Assembly (NCBI GenBank): GCA_024405895.1
Contig: JAKSNW010000007.1
Location: 1 to 64,000, forward strand
Source of the DNA: Paludibacteraceae bacterium
Lineage (GTDB): Bacteria > Bacteroidota > Bacteroidia > Bacteroidales > Paludibacteraceae
Length of the DNA: 64,000 nt
Direction: 5' to 3'
The notes beneath the pieces are model-generated. The model was given only the letters and a program-made list of their open reading frames with translations, made no database searches and had not been told where the DNA came from. Both the position numbers and the translations under genes were made by a program. Shown piece by piece: positions 7,907 to 54,130 of the stretch (within the stretch, counting starts at the first letter, position 1; each line of letters begins with the position of its first letter).

Positions 7907-9220
7907 CTATACCAATTCACCAATCAGTGTGGCAGCAGTAGCCGATGTGACCTTCACACGAACGAAATCACCGATCTTTTTGCCTGACTTAGGGAAGATA
8001 ACGACTTTGTTCTGTGAGGTGCGACCAAAGAAATCGTCATGTGAGCGTTTTGAATAGCCCTCAATCAACACTTCGAATTCCTTGCCTATATCTTTAAGAT
8101 TGGAAGCATTGGAAAGCTCCAGCTGCGTGTCAATCAGTTCGTTCAAACGACGAAGCTTCACTTCCTCAGGCACGTTGTCTTCCAAATGTTTCGATGCGTA
8201 TGTACCAGGACGTTCGCTGTATTTGAACGTGAAGGCAGAGTCGAAAGCACACTCTCTCATCAGCGACAATGTCTGCTGATGGTCTTCTTCTGTCTCGTTG
8301 TGGAAACCACAGAAGATATCTGTGGAGATGGCGGCCTCAGGAAGGATACGGCGGATGGCAGCGATACGGTCGAGATACCATTCGCGTGTATATTTTCTGT
8401 TCATTGCTTTCAAGACGGTGTTGCTGCCGCTTTGAACAGGCAAGTGAATCATCTTGCAGAGATTATCATGAGCCGCAATCACTTCCAATGTCTTGTCGCT
8501 CATATCCTTTGGATGAGAGGTTGTGAAACGGATGCGCATGTCTGGCACGGCTTCTGCAACCAAGGCAAGCAATTCTGGGAAACCACATTCCGTATCACCT
8601 TGAACGAAACGGTAGGAGTTGACGTTCTGACCCAAAAGGGTGACTTCTTTGTAGCCTTTCTGTTGGAGATCACGAACCTCGTTCAAGATGCTTTGCACAT
8701 CACGACTACGTTCTCTGCCGCGTGTGTAAGGCACGATGCAATAGGTGCAGAAATTGTTGCAACCGCGCATGATGGAAACGAAACCGGATATACTTTTGCC
8801 AATACGGGCAGGAATGACATCTTTATAAGTCTCTGTAGTTGAGAGATTCACATTGATTGCTTTCTCACCTTTCTCCACAGCGCCAACAAGATTCGGAAGG
8901 TCGAGATAGCTGTCTGGACCTGCTACAAAATCAACACCATGTTCGTTGATTAACTCATCCTGCATGCGTTCTGCCATACAGCCGATAACACCAACAGCCA
9001 TTGGGTGTTTTTTCTTCAGAGACGAGAGATACTGCAGACGGCCCAACACCTTCTGCTCAGCATTGTCGCGCACAGAACATGTGTTCAGCAACACAGCATC
9101 TGCTTCATTCAGATTCTCTGTCAACTCGTAACCATCGCTTGCCAGCACGGCGGCCACTACCTCGCTGTCTGCTACATTCATCTGACAGCCATAGGTTTCG
9201 ATATAAAGTTTCTTCGTCAT
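7907..9220 (-). CDS. miaB: tRNA-2-methylthio-N6-dimethylallyladenosine synthase
   Basis: A 437-residue radical-SAM methylthiotransferase that adds a methylthio group to i6A37 of tRNAs. The N-terminal domain holds TYGCQMNVADSEV, NTCSVRDNAEQK and IGCMAERM with the three Cys of the auxiliary Fe-S cluster. The radical-SAM core has GCNNFCTYCIVPYTRGRE (CxxxCxxC). The C-terminal TRAM region ends near VKVTSATAATLIGELV. The ATG at 9220 (MTKKLYIETYGC) is chosen over one eight codons upstream, because the upstream ATG overlaps the -7 box. Confidence 0.95.
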   Translation of the reverse strand: MTKKLYIETYGCQMNVADSEVVAAVLASDGYELTENLNEADAVLLNTCSVRDNAEQKVLGRLQYLSSLKKKHPMAVGVIGCMAERMQDELINEHGVDFVAGPDSYLDLPNLVGAVEKGEKAINVNLSTTETYKDVIPARIGKSISGFVSIMRGCNNFCTYCIVPYTRGRERSRDVQSILNEVRDLQQKGYKEVTLLGQNVNSYRFVQGDTECGFPELLALVAEAVPDMRIRFTTSHPKDMSDKTLEVIAAHDNLCKMIHLPVQSGSNTVLKAMNRKYTREWYLDRIAAIRRILPEAAISTDIFCGFHNETEEDHQQTLSLMRECAFDSAFTFKYSERPGTYASKHLEDNVPEEVKLRRLNELIDTQLELSNASNLKDIGKEFEVLIEGYSKRSHDDFFGRTSQNKVVIFPKSGKKIGDFVRVKVTSATAATLIGELV

Positions 9221-9241
9221 TGCATGCTTTGTTTTGAAGCA

Positions 9242-9354: not shown

Positions 9355-9510
9355 TCTAAAAATAGCATTGTTGTGCGTCTGATTTCATGCTGCAGGCGCA
9401 ATAATGGAGAATTCTGGGGTGCGGCTATGGTTGGCTTACTGATTGAAAGCAAACATACAAAATTCATCGTGTCAGCGTTTTTTCTGCTAATTTCTTTGCC
9501 CAATTGCCCT
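9355..9510 (+). repeat. Dispersed upstream repeat, copy R1
   Basis: About 155 bp that aligns, in the same orientation relative to the downstream lipoprotein gene, with the complements of the repeats at 50823-50922, 52301-52400 and 53888-53987. Shared landmarks are a start like TCTAAAAA(T/C)AGCATT, then (A/G)TTTCA, a G-rich centre around TCTGGGGTG versus TCGGGGGTG, GAAAGCAAAC, and CAGCGTTTTTT near 9474-9484. It is more diverged than the other copies. Here it lies about 1.4 kb before its lipoprotein gene, with the 42-bp array in between. Confidence 0.65.
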
Positions 9511-9619
9511 GTAGGGGCAAAAGTAAAAACGGCTACTTGCGAAGAACAACATCTGTTCCGTTTGGGCAACTCTGCGAATAACTCTGTCTGCTAACTAAAT
9601 GCGAGAGTAAACCGTTCGA
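9511..9619. other. Non-coding spacer before the array
   Basis: No credible gene. The reverse strand shows TACTTTTG at 9518-9525, a possible -7 box with GTTG 21 bases upstream, but no convincing reverse-strand gene follows it. A GCCC/GGGGC mini-hairpin lies at 9504-9517. Confidence 0.4.
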
Positions 9620-10561
9620 CTTACTCCTATTGCTAATTCGACGTAAGGGCAAATCTCACTTGATAACACTTACTGCAAAGTAGACGTAAGAATAATTTCT
9701 GTTACTTACTCCTATTGCAATTTGATGTAAGGACAAACCTCACTTGATTACAGTTACTGCAAAGTTGACGCGAGCATAATCTCTTTTACTTACTCTTATT
9801 GCAATTTGATGTGAGGGCAAATCTCACTTGATTACAGTTACTGCAAAGTAGACGTAAGCGTAATTTCTGTTACTTACTCCTATTGCAATTTGACGTAAGG
9901 ACAAACCTCACTTGATAACAGCTACCGCAAAGTTGACTTGAGCATAATTTCTTTTACTTACTCTTATTGCAAGTTGACATAAGGACAAAACTCACTTGAT
10001 TACAGTTATTGCAAAGTTGACGTAAGAAAAAACTGAAGTGTTCAGAGTTATTGCGAAGTGACATTCGTTTGGTTCTGTTAACATCATAGAAATTGCAAGG
10101 TGACATTCATTTGGTTCTGTTAACATCATGGAAATTGCGAGATGACATTCATTTAGTTCTGTTAACATTATAGAAATTGCGAGGTAACAATTACACCAGA
10201 CAAGACTTTTTTCTCCAATTGCAAAGTGACATTCATTTAGTTCTGTTAACATTATAGAAATTGCGAGGTAACAATTACACCAGACAAGACTTTTTTCTCC
10301 AATTGCAAAGTGACATTCATTTAGTTCTGTTAACATTATAGAAATTGCGAGGTAACAATTACACCAGACAAGACTTTTTTCTCCAATTGCAAGGTGACAT
10401 TCGTTTAGTTCTGTTAACATTATAGAAATTGCGAATTAGCAATAACACCAAGCAAGACTTTTTTCTTCAATTGCAAAGTGACATTCGTTTGGTTCTGTTA
10501 ACACTATAGAAATTGCGAGTTAGCAATAACAATGTTTTGTTCAGTTTGAAGCTACTGCAAC
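9620..10561. repeat. 42-bp-phased tandem array of 22 units
   Basis: Anchors of the form TTGCAA-n-GTGAC recur at 9638, 9681, 9722, 9765, 9806, 9849, 9890, 9933, 9974, 10017, 10058 and then exactly every 42 bases to 10520 (10100, 10142, 10184 and so on). In the first half the gaps alternate 43 and 41; from 10058 on they are all 42. The mean is 42.0. Between anchors lie four alternative fillers: two alternate in the first half (84-bp super-unit) and two alternate in the second half. The anchor is conserved while the fillers change. Forty-two is divisible by three, so long open frames arise by chance in it. There is no CRISPR-like spacer diversity. Confidence 0.9.
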
Positions 10562-10799
10562 CTTGCAATAACAGTAGAAAAGCCAGAAAAACGGCATATT
10601 TCACCTCATTTAACATTGTTTGTGTTGTATTATGCCCAATTGTCAGGCTGTATGGTGCGTAGGGGATAAATGATTGGTAAAACGGAACACGACAATTGTA
10701 GAGACGTGTCATGTCTCTATGGTGCGGAGGATAGAAGAAAAGATTGTCCCTGTTAATCTGACATATTTCATAGTATCAGCGGTTTTTCGGATTAAAAGT

Positions 10800-10871: not shown

Positions 10872-12200
10872 ATGATTATGAAGACACTGCGTTATTCAAT
10901 AATGGCTAAACTGACTCTTGCTGTTTCAATGACAATAATATTATTTGTTTCTTGTTCTCCAGAAATGGAGATTTCTGGAGTTGACTATTACTATAGAGCT
11001 AACAAGGCTGTTGTTTATAACGATCATTTAGAACGACCAACTGAAGATTTGGGAGGAATAACCGATTGCTATTTTGCAAACGGCAATATTTATTACATTG
11101 GTACTCATGTCTCGAAAGAAACACGAGAGAGCCAGGCATTTATTGAAGTAAATGGCTCTCGAAAATGGTATCGGTTGAACAACAACGACACCAAAGGAGC
11201 GATGATTGTTCCTGATGATAAAGACATCTATTATATCTTAGAGGAAACCTACGAGACTGGTGATAAAAACCAATTAGGAGACCCTCATGTTGGCCATTCT
11301 TATTATGCCTCAAAAAATGGGGGCGAACCAGAATTTATTGGCCATTCTCCAGAACTAATCCATGATACGAAATTACCATATATTACTACCATAAAAAGAA
11401 TAGACGGTCAGTTCTATTTCACTGGCATTAAAGATGATGTTGGATTCTATAGCCCTGCAGAAAATCTCGTCCTTCCGTTTTATGTCTCGGGACATGGTGG
11501 CGCTGCATTTGACATTATAAAGAAAGATAGCGTTATTTATTGTTGTGGTCGCCATAACAATACGGCCTATCTTTTCAACAAGACGGAACTGATAGAATTG
11601 GAAATACCAGAACGTTCAGAATATTCTGAAGCAAGATGTATGAAAGTAGTAGGTGACGATCTTTACGTCGGAGGTATGATAGACGAGGTTCCTGTAATAT
11701 GGAAAAATGGAGAGATTTGGGGAAGGTATGACGATTTTCCTCCGCACTATCTACATTATTATCTTAAAGATGTTGACAAATCATTATCTCCTGCAGTTCC
11801 AAACAACGGCACTCCACCAAACTTAGATCCAGCATTACCTATGAACTACCGCGCTGGTTCTGTCATTAATATGGAGATATTTGGTGACACAATCTATTCC
11901 ATGATAATAACACGCTCAAACAGTACTTCTCAAATATCTGGGAAACACTATGATTGTAGGTACTTTGCACTCGAATGGTATAAGTCTGGTGACAAAGTTG
12001 TTTGTAAAGATAAATATGATATAGTAGAAATGATGAAACTTCATACTATTGAGTTTGACAGAGCGTATTATGGAACAAGTGATGCTGGAGAAGAAACATG
12101 GACCGTTTGGATCTCTGACGAATCCGCTTCACGTTGGGACTTATCTTATAGCCGTCCACGTATAGCGCCTCGTTACGTGAAAGCCAAACGCAAGAAATAA
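10872..12200 (+). CDS. Surface lipoprotein, family of the 49-54 kb paralogues
   Basis: A 442-residue predicted lipoprotein (ATG at 10872; a second ATG at 10878 is equally plausible). The signal peptide ends LFVSC, acylated Cys near residue 29. The body is beta-rich with repeated short motifs such as GDDLYVGGMIDEVPVIWKNGEIW, which recur in the proteins at 49422-50721 and 52467-53780, so these are paralogues. The pattern of short repeated strands suggests a propeller-like fold, an inference only. Codons are unusually AT-rich compared with neighbours such as miaB and pgk. Function unknown. A hairpin follows at 12227-12254. Confidence 0.8.
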   Translation: MIMKTLRYSIMAKLTLAVSMTIILFVSCSPEMEISGVDYYYRANKAVVYNDHLERPTEDLGGITDCYFANGNIYYIGTHVSKETRESQAFIEVNGSRKWYRLNNNDTKGAMIVPDDKDIYYILEETYETGDKNQLGDPHVGHSYYASKNGGEPEFIGHSPELIHDTKLPYITTIKRIDGQFYFTGIKDDVGFYSPAENLVLPFYVSGHGGAAFDIIKKDSVIYCCGRHNNTAYLFNKTELIELEIPERSEYSEARCMKVVGDDLYVGGMIDEVPVIWKNGEIWGRYDDFPPHYLHYYLKDVDKSLSPAVPNNGTPPNLDPALPMNYRAGSVINMEIFGDTIYSMIITRSNSTSQISGKHYDCRYFALEWYKSGDKVVCKDKYDIVEMMKLHTIEFDRAYYGTSDAGEETWTVWISDESASRWDLSYSRPRIAPRYVKAKRKK

Positions 12201-34319: not shown

Positions 34320-34500
34320 TCGTCGGGAAGGAAAAGTTGTCGACTTTTTGGCCTCGCCGACCGTCGGGACGGTTTTGCCTGCAGGATTTTCCTTCTCGCC
34401 GACCGTCGGGACGGTTTTGCCTGCAGGATTTTCCTTCTCGCCGACCGTCGGGGCGGTTTTGCCTGCAGGATTTTCCTTCTCGCCGTTCGTCGGGGAGTTT
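34320..34500. repeat. Second 42-bp array, sequence-unrelated to the first
   Basis: Anchors of the type CCGTCGGG recur at 34320, 34361, 34403, 34445 and 34487, i.e. 41, 42, 42, 42 bases apart. Three central units are nearly identical (CCGACCGTCGGGACGG, then GTTTTGCCTGCAGGATTTTC and a CTTCTCG tail); the outer two are diverged. CCGTC and GACGG form a small inverted repeat. The unit encodes 14-residue repeats on both strands only because 42 divides by three. It starts about 90 bases after a terminator. A lone exact 16-bp anchor is also at 47599. Confidence 0.88.
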
Positions 34501-35409
34501 TTCGTTAGCAAAGATACGAAGATTTTGCGAATCTACGGGTTTTGTGGCCGGAAGATGTCGCGGTCGGCATTAAAAGTGAAAAGTGAAGTCTGCGATTAAG
34601 CGAGAGCAGAACCAAGCTTGCTTGGTATGCCGAGCGTGAGCAGACTCTTTGTGAAACAAAGAAAAGTGAAAAGTTCGCCCTATCGCCTTATCGCCTCATC
34701 GCCTTATCGCCGAATTATACATTGCGCCGCAGGCAAAAGGGGGTCTATTGCTTCGCAAGAAATTTTAATAAGAAATTTTAATAAGAAATTCCTGATAGTC
34801 GGCCTATGAGCAAACAAAATAATTTCTAAAAATTAAATTTTCCCAACTCCAATTTCTCAAAATCAATTTCTTGCCTAAGCAATAAACAAATCCTCTAACG
34901 TAACTGCCAAATTATACGGTTAATTATACGTTGCGCCGCAGGCAAAAAGTCTCCCGTTGATTTCTTTTTTAACGCGAATGACCGTTGAATTATCCGTGAA
35001 CTAGCGTAGCGTAGTCGCGACCGATAGGGAGTCCCGAAGGGATGCGAAGCACAATTATCCGTTAATTAATTATCGTTTCCGCAGTACAACAAGAATGTGT
35101 TTTAAAATTTACGGAATAATTTACGGATAATTTTCGCCTAATTATACGTTGCGCCGCAGGCAAAGTCTCCCGTTGATTTCTTTTTTAACGCGAATGACCG
35201 TTGAATTACCCGTGAATTATCCATTAATCACATGAATTGTTGAATTATACGGATTAATTTACGGATAATTTTCGCCTAATTATACGTTGCGCCGCAGGCA
35301 AAAAGAAGTTTCTCAACGTTAACGTTAACCTTAACCTTAACCTCCTCGTTCCCGTTCTCGTTCCCGTTCCCGTTCCCTCATCGCCTAATTTTTGGTTCCA
35401 CAAAAAAGA
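34501..35409. repeat. Non-coding stretch with dispersed and microsatellite repeats
   Basis: No gene. The block AATTATACGTTGCGCCGCAG recurs near 34713 (diverged), 34922, 35140 and 35277; around 34922 and 35140 it extends to about 80 bp (through GTCTCCCGTTGATTTC, AACGCGAATGACCGTTGAATT). ACGGATAATTTTCGCC precedes the last two. Other simple repeats are TATCGCC tracts at 34681-34712, an AAGAAATTTTAAT duplication at 34757-34790 and hexamers TTAACC and CCCGTT at 35316-35378. This looks like a relic or recombination-prone zone. Confidence 0.75.
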
Positions 35410-53987: not shown

Positions 53988-54003
53988 TTTTCTAAAACGA
54001 TCA

Positions 54004-54130
54004 TGCAAGCCTTGCACGGTCTCCGACAATTTTTGCGAACCATCGTGCAAGCCTTGCATGGTCTCCGACAATTTTTGCGAATCATCGTGCAGGTCTTGCA
54101 CGGTTACGAAATATTTTCTGAAAATAGAGT
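54004..54130. repeat. Third 42-bp array (three units)
   Basis: TGCAAGCCTTGCA at 54004 and 54046 and TGCAGGTCTTGCA at 54088, exactly 42 bases apart. The core TGCAAG-C-CTTGCA is a 13-bp interrupted palindrome; the fillers (GGTCTCCGACAATTTTTGCG) are nearly identical in the first two units. It adjoins R4. Confidence 0.82.

Follow-up and report, generated by a model that had tools for sequence, protein, structure and literature searches.

Here we describe an array of 42-bp units in the genome of a Paludibacteraceae bacterium, together with the genome-wide set of repeats to which it belongs. Tentatively, and with a little less than an even chance in our estimate, we read this array as a non-coding minisatellite carried within a dispersed intergenic element, one of a genome-wide set of constant size (41-43 bp) and variable sequence, in which units would be generated by in-register recombination or slippage and the period would be held by duplex geometry, most likely through a sequence-tolerant protein. 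Several copies of the element are present, they differ in copy number by whole units, filler sequence has turned over in a kept register, and array clusters across the genome share the period or a multiple of it (15 of 19).

The array lies in a stretch of 64,000 nucleotides, hereafter the window. A pattern scan with [TC][TC]GC[AGT]A placed 23 TTGC-type anchors at 9630, 9673, 9715 and onwards to 10555; the first of the 22 gaps is 43 bp and the other 21 are exactly 42 bp, which bears out the regular spacing of about 42 bp that had been reported in an initial annotation of this DNA. An additional match at 10563, 8 bp past the last anchor, falls inside the tail of the element. The alternation of 43 and 41 bp described for the first half is true of the GAC core, found at offset 9 in one unit type (A1) and 10 in another (A2), while the TTGC core stays at 42. 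Between 9600 and 10600, self-identity reaches 0.75 at lag 84, 0.70 at 168, 0.48 at 42 and 0.46 at 126, as against 0.323 for the best lag from 5 to 199 that is not a multiple of 42, and the 84-bp rows of the array score 597 and 673 in TRF. This periodicity is far beyond chance. The units run head-to-tail at 42 bp from 9630 to 10554, in two parts:

9630..10050, plus strand: array part A, in which two unit types alternate as an 84-bp higher-order repeat; it opens with a 43-bp unit and closes with a chimeric one.
10051..10554, plus strand: array part B, 42-bp units of types B1 and B2, partly in 84-bp pairs; last unit chimeric; carries the TTGCGAGGTRRCAA anchors.

As had been noted, there are four filler types (A1, A2, B1 and B2), which change along the array while the anchor register is stable. 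The chimeric unit that ends each half matches the preceding type, by eye, over its first 18-20 or so bases. Since the fillers recur as the same four types within and between loci and are not unique spacers, a CRISPR was ruled out.

A repetitive peptide would be one explanation of such an array, 42 bp being 14 codons, and a 142-aa reverse-strand ORF does occupy 9992-10420, with a 114-aa ORF in the C5 copy of the element. We rejected this coding reading as very improbable: each of the six frames is interrupted by stops over some part of the array, sister arrays have periods of 41 or 43, and the two reverse-strand ORFs that cross the array gave no Pfam match above the curated cut-off, with two weak matches below it. 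The search for Rfam families at gathering score returned none in the array and only one tRNA in the whole window. Tests for palindromes gave nothing significant in the A and B units (for stems, p 0.94 and 0.99; for dyads, p 0.70 and 0.98), and a lag-21 test detected no 21-bp substructure in the two window arrays.

BLAST comparison with other copies extended the repeated element from the 9620-10561 interval marked earlier to 9502-10706. The element and its surroundings are as follows:

9502..10706, plus strand: dispersed element (leader, 42-bp array and tail), with BLAST homology to copies on contigs C5 and C21 whose neighbouring ORFs differ.
9506..9575, plus strand: leader, 70 bp between boundary words that we chose, starting with the palindrome GCCCTGTAGGGGC; ungapped in C37 (the copy in the window), C5, C21 and C2, with at least four substitutions.
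10555..10727, plus strand: tail, 173 bp here; the C5 and C21 copies end in the GTAGAGACG..CGTCTCTAC palindrome.
7910..9223, minus strand: left neighbour, a MiaB-type radical SAM protein (Pfam UPF0004, Radical_SAM and TRAM; the MiaB name is our reading).
10872..12200, plus strand: right neighbour, a 442-aa ORF, lipoprotein-like by eye, with no Pfam match.

The source genome (1.72 Mb in 39 contigs, 78% complete) holds three dispersed, intergenic copies with both leader and tail, namely that in the window and those at C5:23024-24143 and on C21 from 18567, the latter two being 86 and 87% identical to it over the matched parts. Between boundary words of our choosing the tail measures 173-176 bp in the three copies, and the unit number varies among them by whole units. 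On C2, from 23687, a fourth leader alone precedes a different 42-bp array, of a type found again on C39. The C5 copy is neighboured by an outer-membrane-type ORF and an hsdM-like ORF (names read from the ORFs by eye); since the neighbouring ORFs differ between copies, the element has moved or been copied. Its ends bear unlike palindromes, in which no terminal inverted repeats were recognised by eye, and the palindromes of the leader flank recur elsewhere in the genome. For the MiaB-type protein, the closest named match among the best 80 of 592 stretches is from a Paludibacteraceae MAG (77% identity). A search of the assembly of a same-genus relative, G001 (88% complete), found neither the element nor a close miaB match (best 1.4e-49), the latter making an empty-site comparison impossible, and an exact 24-base leader pattern had zero matches in the contig database, where near relatives may be missing.

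The initial annotation had proposed that the array docks a DNA-binding protein and that selection acts on the anchor and not on the filler. Anchor (positions 1-14) and filler (15-42) were compared in 54 typed units from the C37, C5 and C21 copies, after exclusion of 7 of 61 units, one of 43 bp and six chimeric. Diversity in anchor and filler, respectively, was 0.144 and 0.167 for A2, 0.106 and 0.156 for A1, 0.091 and 0.076 for B1, and 0.087 and 0.105 for B2, so that three types vary slightly less in the anchor than in the filler and one varies more; ranked by variability, the anchor window comes 19th, 6th, 35th and 16th of 42, in the same order. When the type consensuses are paired, five of the six pairs agree better in the anchor than in the filler, a comparison that favours the anchor because units were cut there; A1 and B1 agree at 11 of 14 anchor and 10 of 28 filler positions, and the contrary pair, A1 and A2, at 6 of 14 and 15 of 28. 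Among these paralogous units of four types, conservation of the anchor does not clearly exceed that of the filler, and the claim of selection on the anchor was not supported. Equal divergence of anchor and filler in relatives, which was to count against docking, is nearly what we observed, on paralogs only, no orthologous array having been found. What the docking idea retains is a period more constant than the sequence.

With at most one mismatch allowed, the TTGCGAGGTRRCAA anchor motif is matched 37 times in the genome, compared with 4 times for the reversed pattern. Thirty-four of these lie in, or at most 45 bp from, arrays of four clusters with unlike fillers; two are outside arrays and one (C9:25109) lies beyond the stretches analysed. 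The motif was drawn from arrays, so its presence in them is by construction, and what is informative is that it is nearly absent elsewhere and that arrays whose fillers are unlike have it in common. Among 100 other family genomes, nine contain the exact anchor, with no more than four matches in each, none of them array-spaced.

A census of periods was made by running TRF on 822,056 bases (48%) of the genome, consisting of the window and fetched stretches. Rows scoring below 80 and groups whose best and smallest periods were both below 15 were dropped, and overlapping rows were merged by our own rule, which takes the smallest period having at least 0.3 of the best score. Arrays were labelled coding by a crude filter, when they lay within a stop-to-stop frame of at least 200 aa that exceeded the array by 450 bp. 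Outside long ORFs, the period of 43 of 47 arrays is 41-43 bp or a multiple of that length, the smallest periods being 41 (19 arrays), 42 (18), 43 (2), 83 (1), 84 (2) and 125 (1); the four exceptions have periods of 25, 51, 60 and 69, and those of 51 and 60 look coding by eye. None of the 47 has a period of 21-23. The proportion is similar for arrays of at least four units (31 of 33). BLAST clustering reduced the 47 arrays to 19 clusters, the two halves of the window array counting as two, of which 15 are at 41-43 bp or a multiple. The period is therefore steadier than the sequence, as had been claimed, and the many arrays of varied, non-helical periods that would have spoken against docking were looked for and did not appear in this 48% of the genome, beyond the four exceptions. 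Two of the arrays, different in sequence, lie in the window itself:

34353..34494, strand unassigned: second array, period 42, 3.4 copies (TRF).
53996..54104, strand unassigned: third array, period 42, 2.6 copies (TRF), with the palindrome CGTGCAA(GCC)TTGCACG.

Sampling bears on the number of arrays. In 20 stretches that were picked after the idea had formed, and not by hits, 17 of 20 arrays are at 41-43 or a multiple; some other stretches of this genome were picked since searches had matched their contigs, and contig starts were favoured. Thirteen of 40 contig ends tested sit in arrays of period 41-43 or a multiple at an identity of at least 0.70 (on C1, C3, C4, C6, C8, C14, C25, C27, C29 and C30), and two more starts fall just under. 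Assembly breaks in arrays, combined with the favouring of contig starts, may thus have inflated the number of arrays found, not their period; because assemblies break in such arrays, they probably also undercount them. Nine arrays in the same DNA were labelled coding, and all have periods divisible by three, one of them 42 bp. Of the coding-labelled arrays elsewhere, 14 of 18 at relatives' loci, 7 of 8 from genomes of the family and 1 of 2 from other classes have such periods, a shortfall which means that the label has errors; a 42-bp array at L304:9149-9244 is among those so labelled.

Palindromes are collectively significant in the 19 clusters of this genome (Fisher p 0.036 for stems and 1.3e-5 for dyads) and in 37 arrays of relatives (3.5e-4 and 1.3e-4), in both cases against mononucleotide shuffles alone. 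Given that the two window families are not significant and that the shuffles were mononucleotide, we rejected palindromes as a general feature of the arrays. A mean z of 0.61 at lag 21, taken over 18 partly related arrays, no more than hints at a 21-bp substructure.

Relatives follow another size. We examined 80 of their loci (the best 80 of 592 stretches, 1.41 Mb), nearly all labelled as Bacteroidales groups, with a few bearing just the label of uncultured bacterium and one that of Lachnospiraceae. In these best 80 stretches, 24 of 40 non-coding arrays, counted unclustered, have a smallest period of 21-23 and 3 have 41-43, the remaining periods being 7, 14, 16, 25, 26, 33, 51, 63 (2), 66, 73, 79 and 132. 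Twelve other genomes of the family (725 kb) contributed three arrays outside ORFs, with periods of 22, 41/82 and 140; the 41/82-bp array is that of G001 and has a different sequence. In G018, which belongs to another genus of the family, there is a 41-bp array that the filter classed as coding. Other orders of the class (400 kb) gave one array outside ORFs, of 22 bp, and other classes of the phylum (400 kb) gave three, of 12, 17 and 32 bp, in both cases too few to judge. Outside the phylum, six 50-kb stretches from E. coli, Sinorhizobium and Rhodococcus held three arrays, all in Rhodococcus, with periods of 24, 45 and 105, unsorted by coding status. As a separate observation, a 21-bp array of 17 copies with the unit GCACTCGGAAACATTGCGAGT lies at L085:3093-3450 in the family genome G013, near that relative's miaB-type gene.

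How far the array families are independent was addressed through their unit consensuses. For 17 consensuses (136 pairs) the mean best score is 7.43, versus 6.91 (sd 0.115) after dinucleotide shuffling, and none of 60 shuffles scored as high. When the pairs inside A/B and one pair from a single BLAST cluster are set aside, 13 of the 129 cross-family pairs reach p<=0.05, where about 6 are expected. No word of 4 to 6 letters is common to more of the 17 consensuses than in shuffles. Judged by these sequence comparisons, the families are not wholly independent, and part of the common period reflects common descent in a network of arrays that recombine. Sharing of this kind is what we would see if a few 42-bp founder arrays had been copied, recombined at their anchors and diverged, since slippage and unequal exchange keep any period and require neither a protein nor selection. 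We regard such passive inheritance as possible, and as nearly as likely as a constraint from duplex geometry; slippage that keeps the period, which had been named as the main rival to docking, is still a live one. It accords with the single leader that precedes unlike 42-bp arrays, with the chimeric units at type borders and with the similar diversity of anchor and filler. Length stability is equally compatible with it, as indels are few outside the array too: within arrays there is one odd-length unit in 61 as against at least 61 substitutions, and in leader and tail one internal gap, plus two at the ragged right end, as against at least 25 substitutions, so that, with array and flank similarly stable, the test cannot separate selection from inheritance. 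Against passive inheritance, 116 of the 129 cross-family pairs have no detectable kinship and yet share the period, and the drift of founders would not predict that relatives hold to 21-23 and Bacillus, according to excerpts of PMC8161180, to 20-21 and 52.

A ruler of a mutational kind would place the cause elsewhere, in an enzyme that works on duplex or single-stranded DNA and makes duplications of fixed length, such as a REP-associated transposase of the IS200-like (Y1) kind, any function being secondary. We consider this improbable. The genome has two Y1_Tnp genes. One, at C1:9099-9443, is surrounded by recurring REP-like palindromes and an 83-bp repeat, and the other lies at 2.1 kb from the element's C5 copy; moreover, the leader starts with a palindrome and those of its flank recur at other sites. 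In these intergenic palindromes beside a Y1 transposase, recurring in the leader flank, there is a likeness to the REP/BIME and RAYT systems, as described in the parts of PMC3733652 and PMC2817692 that we consulted. The 42-bp window units, unlike REP sequences (PMC3733652, in part), are not significant palindromes, and G018 (99% complete) has its 41-bp array without a Y1_Tnp match.

Among published kinds of repeat, the nearest are the bacterial tandem repeats of constant size and variable sequence described by Subirana and Messeguer. In a study of 1241 genomes these were found in sizes of 20-21 and 52 nt only, with 20-23 nt repeats in species of many groups and a few 40-41 nt repeats in Bacillus that were tied to the 20-21 class, the Bacillus repeats otherwise holding to 20-21 and 52 (PMC8161180, excerpts). 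According to the same excerpts, 20-21 nt corresponds to two helical turns, a protein polymerising along the DNA, or else an RNA role, was proposed, and no protein is named for the constant repeat size. Our arrays share with these repeats an unstable unit number, few other sizes and a non-coding character, judged here by periods of 41 and 43 besides 42, by window ORFs without Pfam matches above the cut-off and by our crude ORF filter. Several unlike families of one length occur per genome in both, those described here being in part distantly kin, and the sequences are species-specific in both, as our searches with leader, element and anchor in relatives indicate. Where the published families of a species have short words in common (PMC8161180, in part), here TTGCGAGGTRRCAA is found in four clusters and pairwise sharing exceeds shuffles, with no 4- to 6-letter word doing so. 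The difference is one of size: 41-43 nt here, none at 21-23 and one coding-looking array at 51, compared with 20-21 and 52 nt. The string 'bacteroid' has no text match in PMC8161180, nor do Bacteroid, Porphyromonas and Prevotella in the portion available to us of 'Satellites in the prokaryote world' (PMC6749651). In the literature that we searched no report of a genome-wide 41-43 class was found, while the 1241-genome survey may include cases of 41-43 nt. The 41-43 bp arrays thus appear to be a further size class of constant-size, variable-sequence repeats.

In organisation the element resembles the BrickBuilt MITE of Porphyromonas gingivalis, which is likewise dispersed and intergenic and consists of a leader, spacerless direct repeats and a tail, with copies differing in repeat number. 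BrickBuilt has a 23-nt unit, a single sequence family and, in some copies, 12-nt terminal inverted repeats of IS5 type, unlike the dissimilar terminal palindromes of our element (PMC4596501, in part). MITEPgRS/464 of the same species, at about 10-20 copies per genome, contains internal 41-nt tandem direct repeats, and differs from the present set in being a single type of element, whose flanks are repetitive and whose terminal inverted repeats are nearly those of BrickBuilt, not a genome-wide collection of unlike families (PMC4596501, in part). The unit sizes of these two P. gingivalis elements are close to those found in this analysis. By contrast, the tandem repeats of archaeal Borg elements are numerous; their genic units may take any length that is a multiple of three, and the sections of PMC9879509 that we drew on report no one size for intergenic repeats.

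These comparisons also raise the prospect that the arrays are transcribed as a sponge or small RNA, with unit size set by an RNA-binding protein or by a fold. In B. coagulans the 52-nt class is transcribed, and an RNA role has been put forward for that class (PMC8161180, excerpts); in addition, BrickBuilt segments hold promoter elements in both directions (PMC4596501, in part). With no Rfam match at gathering score, and window array types without a significant hairpin, we think such a role distinctly unlikely here.

Under the reading that we favour, of a period held by duplex geometry, unequal recombination or slippage in register would make and homogenise the arrays, which may also swap pieces at shared anchors, and a geometric constraint would hold the period near four helical turns. 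That constraint would most likely be a sequence-tolerant DNA-binding protein packing along one face of the array, perhaps one related to the nucleoid or to supercoiling, which agrees with the suggestion of Subirana and Messeguer for the 20-21 and 52 nt classes (PMC8161180, excerpts). Periods of 21, 42 and 52 lie near two, four and five turns, as do the published 20-21 and 52 nt near two and five. A broader statement can be framed, although we hold it doubtful: that the non-coding minisatellites of bacteria are quantised, across phyla, near certain whole numbers of helical turns, namely two (20-23 bp), four (41-43) and five (52), through a sequence-tolerant protein or an enzyme that uses the helix as a ruler. 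Counter to a helical rule, the 22 and 23 common in relatives fit 10.5 bp per turn less well, and periods of three turns are almost absent, with one of 32 in another class and one of 33 in the order set. The rule, if real, is accordingly not one of any whole number of turns. Were the broader statement true, this genome would be the first genome-wide four-turn case that our search turned up, the two-turn class being unseen in it, and would offer a change of ruler length that can be studied in nature inside a single order of bacteria. A further class near whole turns, in another phylum, bears on why some bacteria fix the size of a repeat while its sequence drifts, and makes the idea of a helical ruler testable.

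Three other regions deserve mention in their own right. At C1:8270-9860 a Y1 (IS200-like) transposase gene is set amid an 83-bp tandem repeat and REP-like palindromes of two types, CCCCTTCAGGG and CCCAGGGTG..ACCCTGGG, and palindromes similar to these recur at other sites in the genome. The second Y1 transposase gene, at C5:20573-20914, comes right after the hsdM-like ORF, at a distance of 2.1 kb from the element's C5 copy. Finally, in the window at 34675-35377, clustered past the 34353 array, there are short repeats of 6-13 bp (TCGCCTTA, AAGAAATTTTAAT and CGTTCC) along with repeated intergenic pieces.
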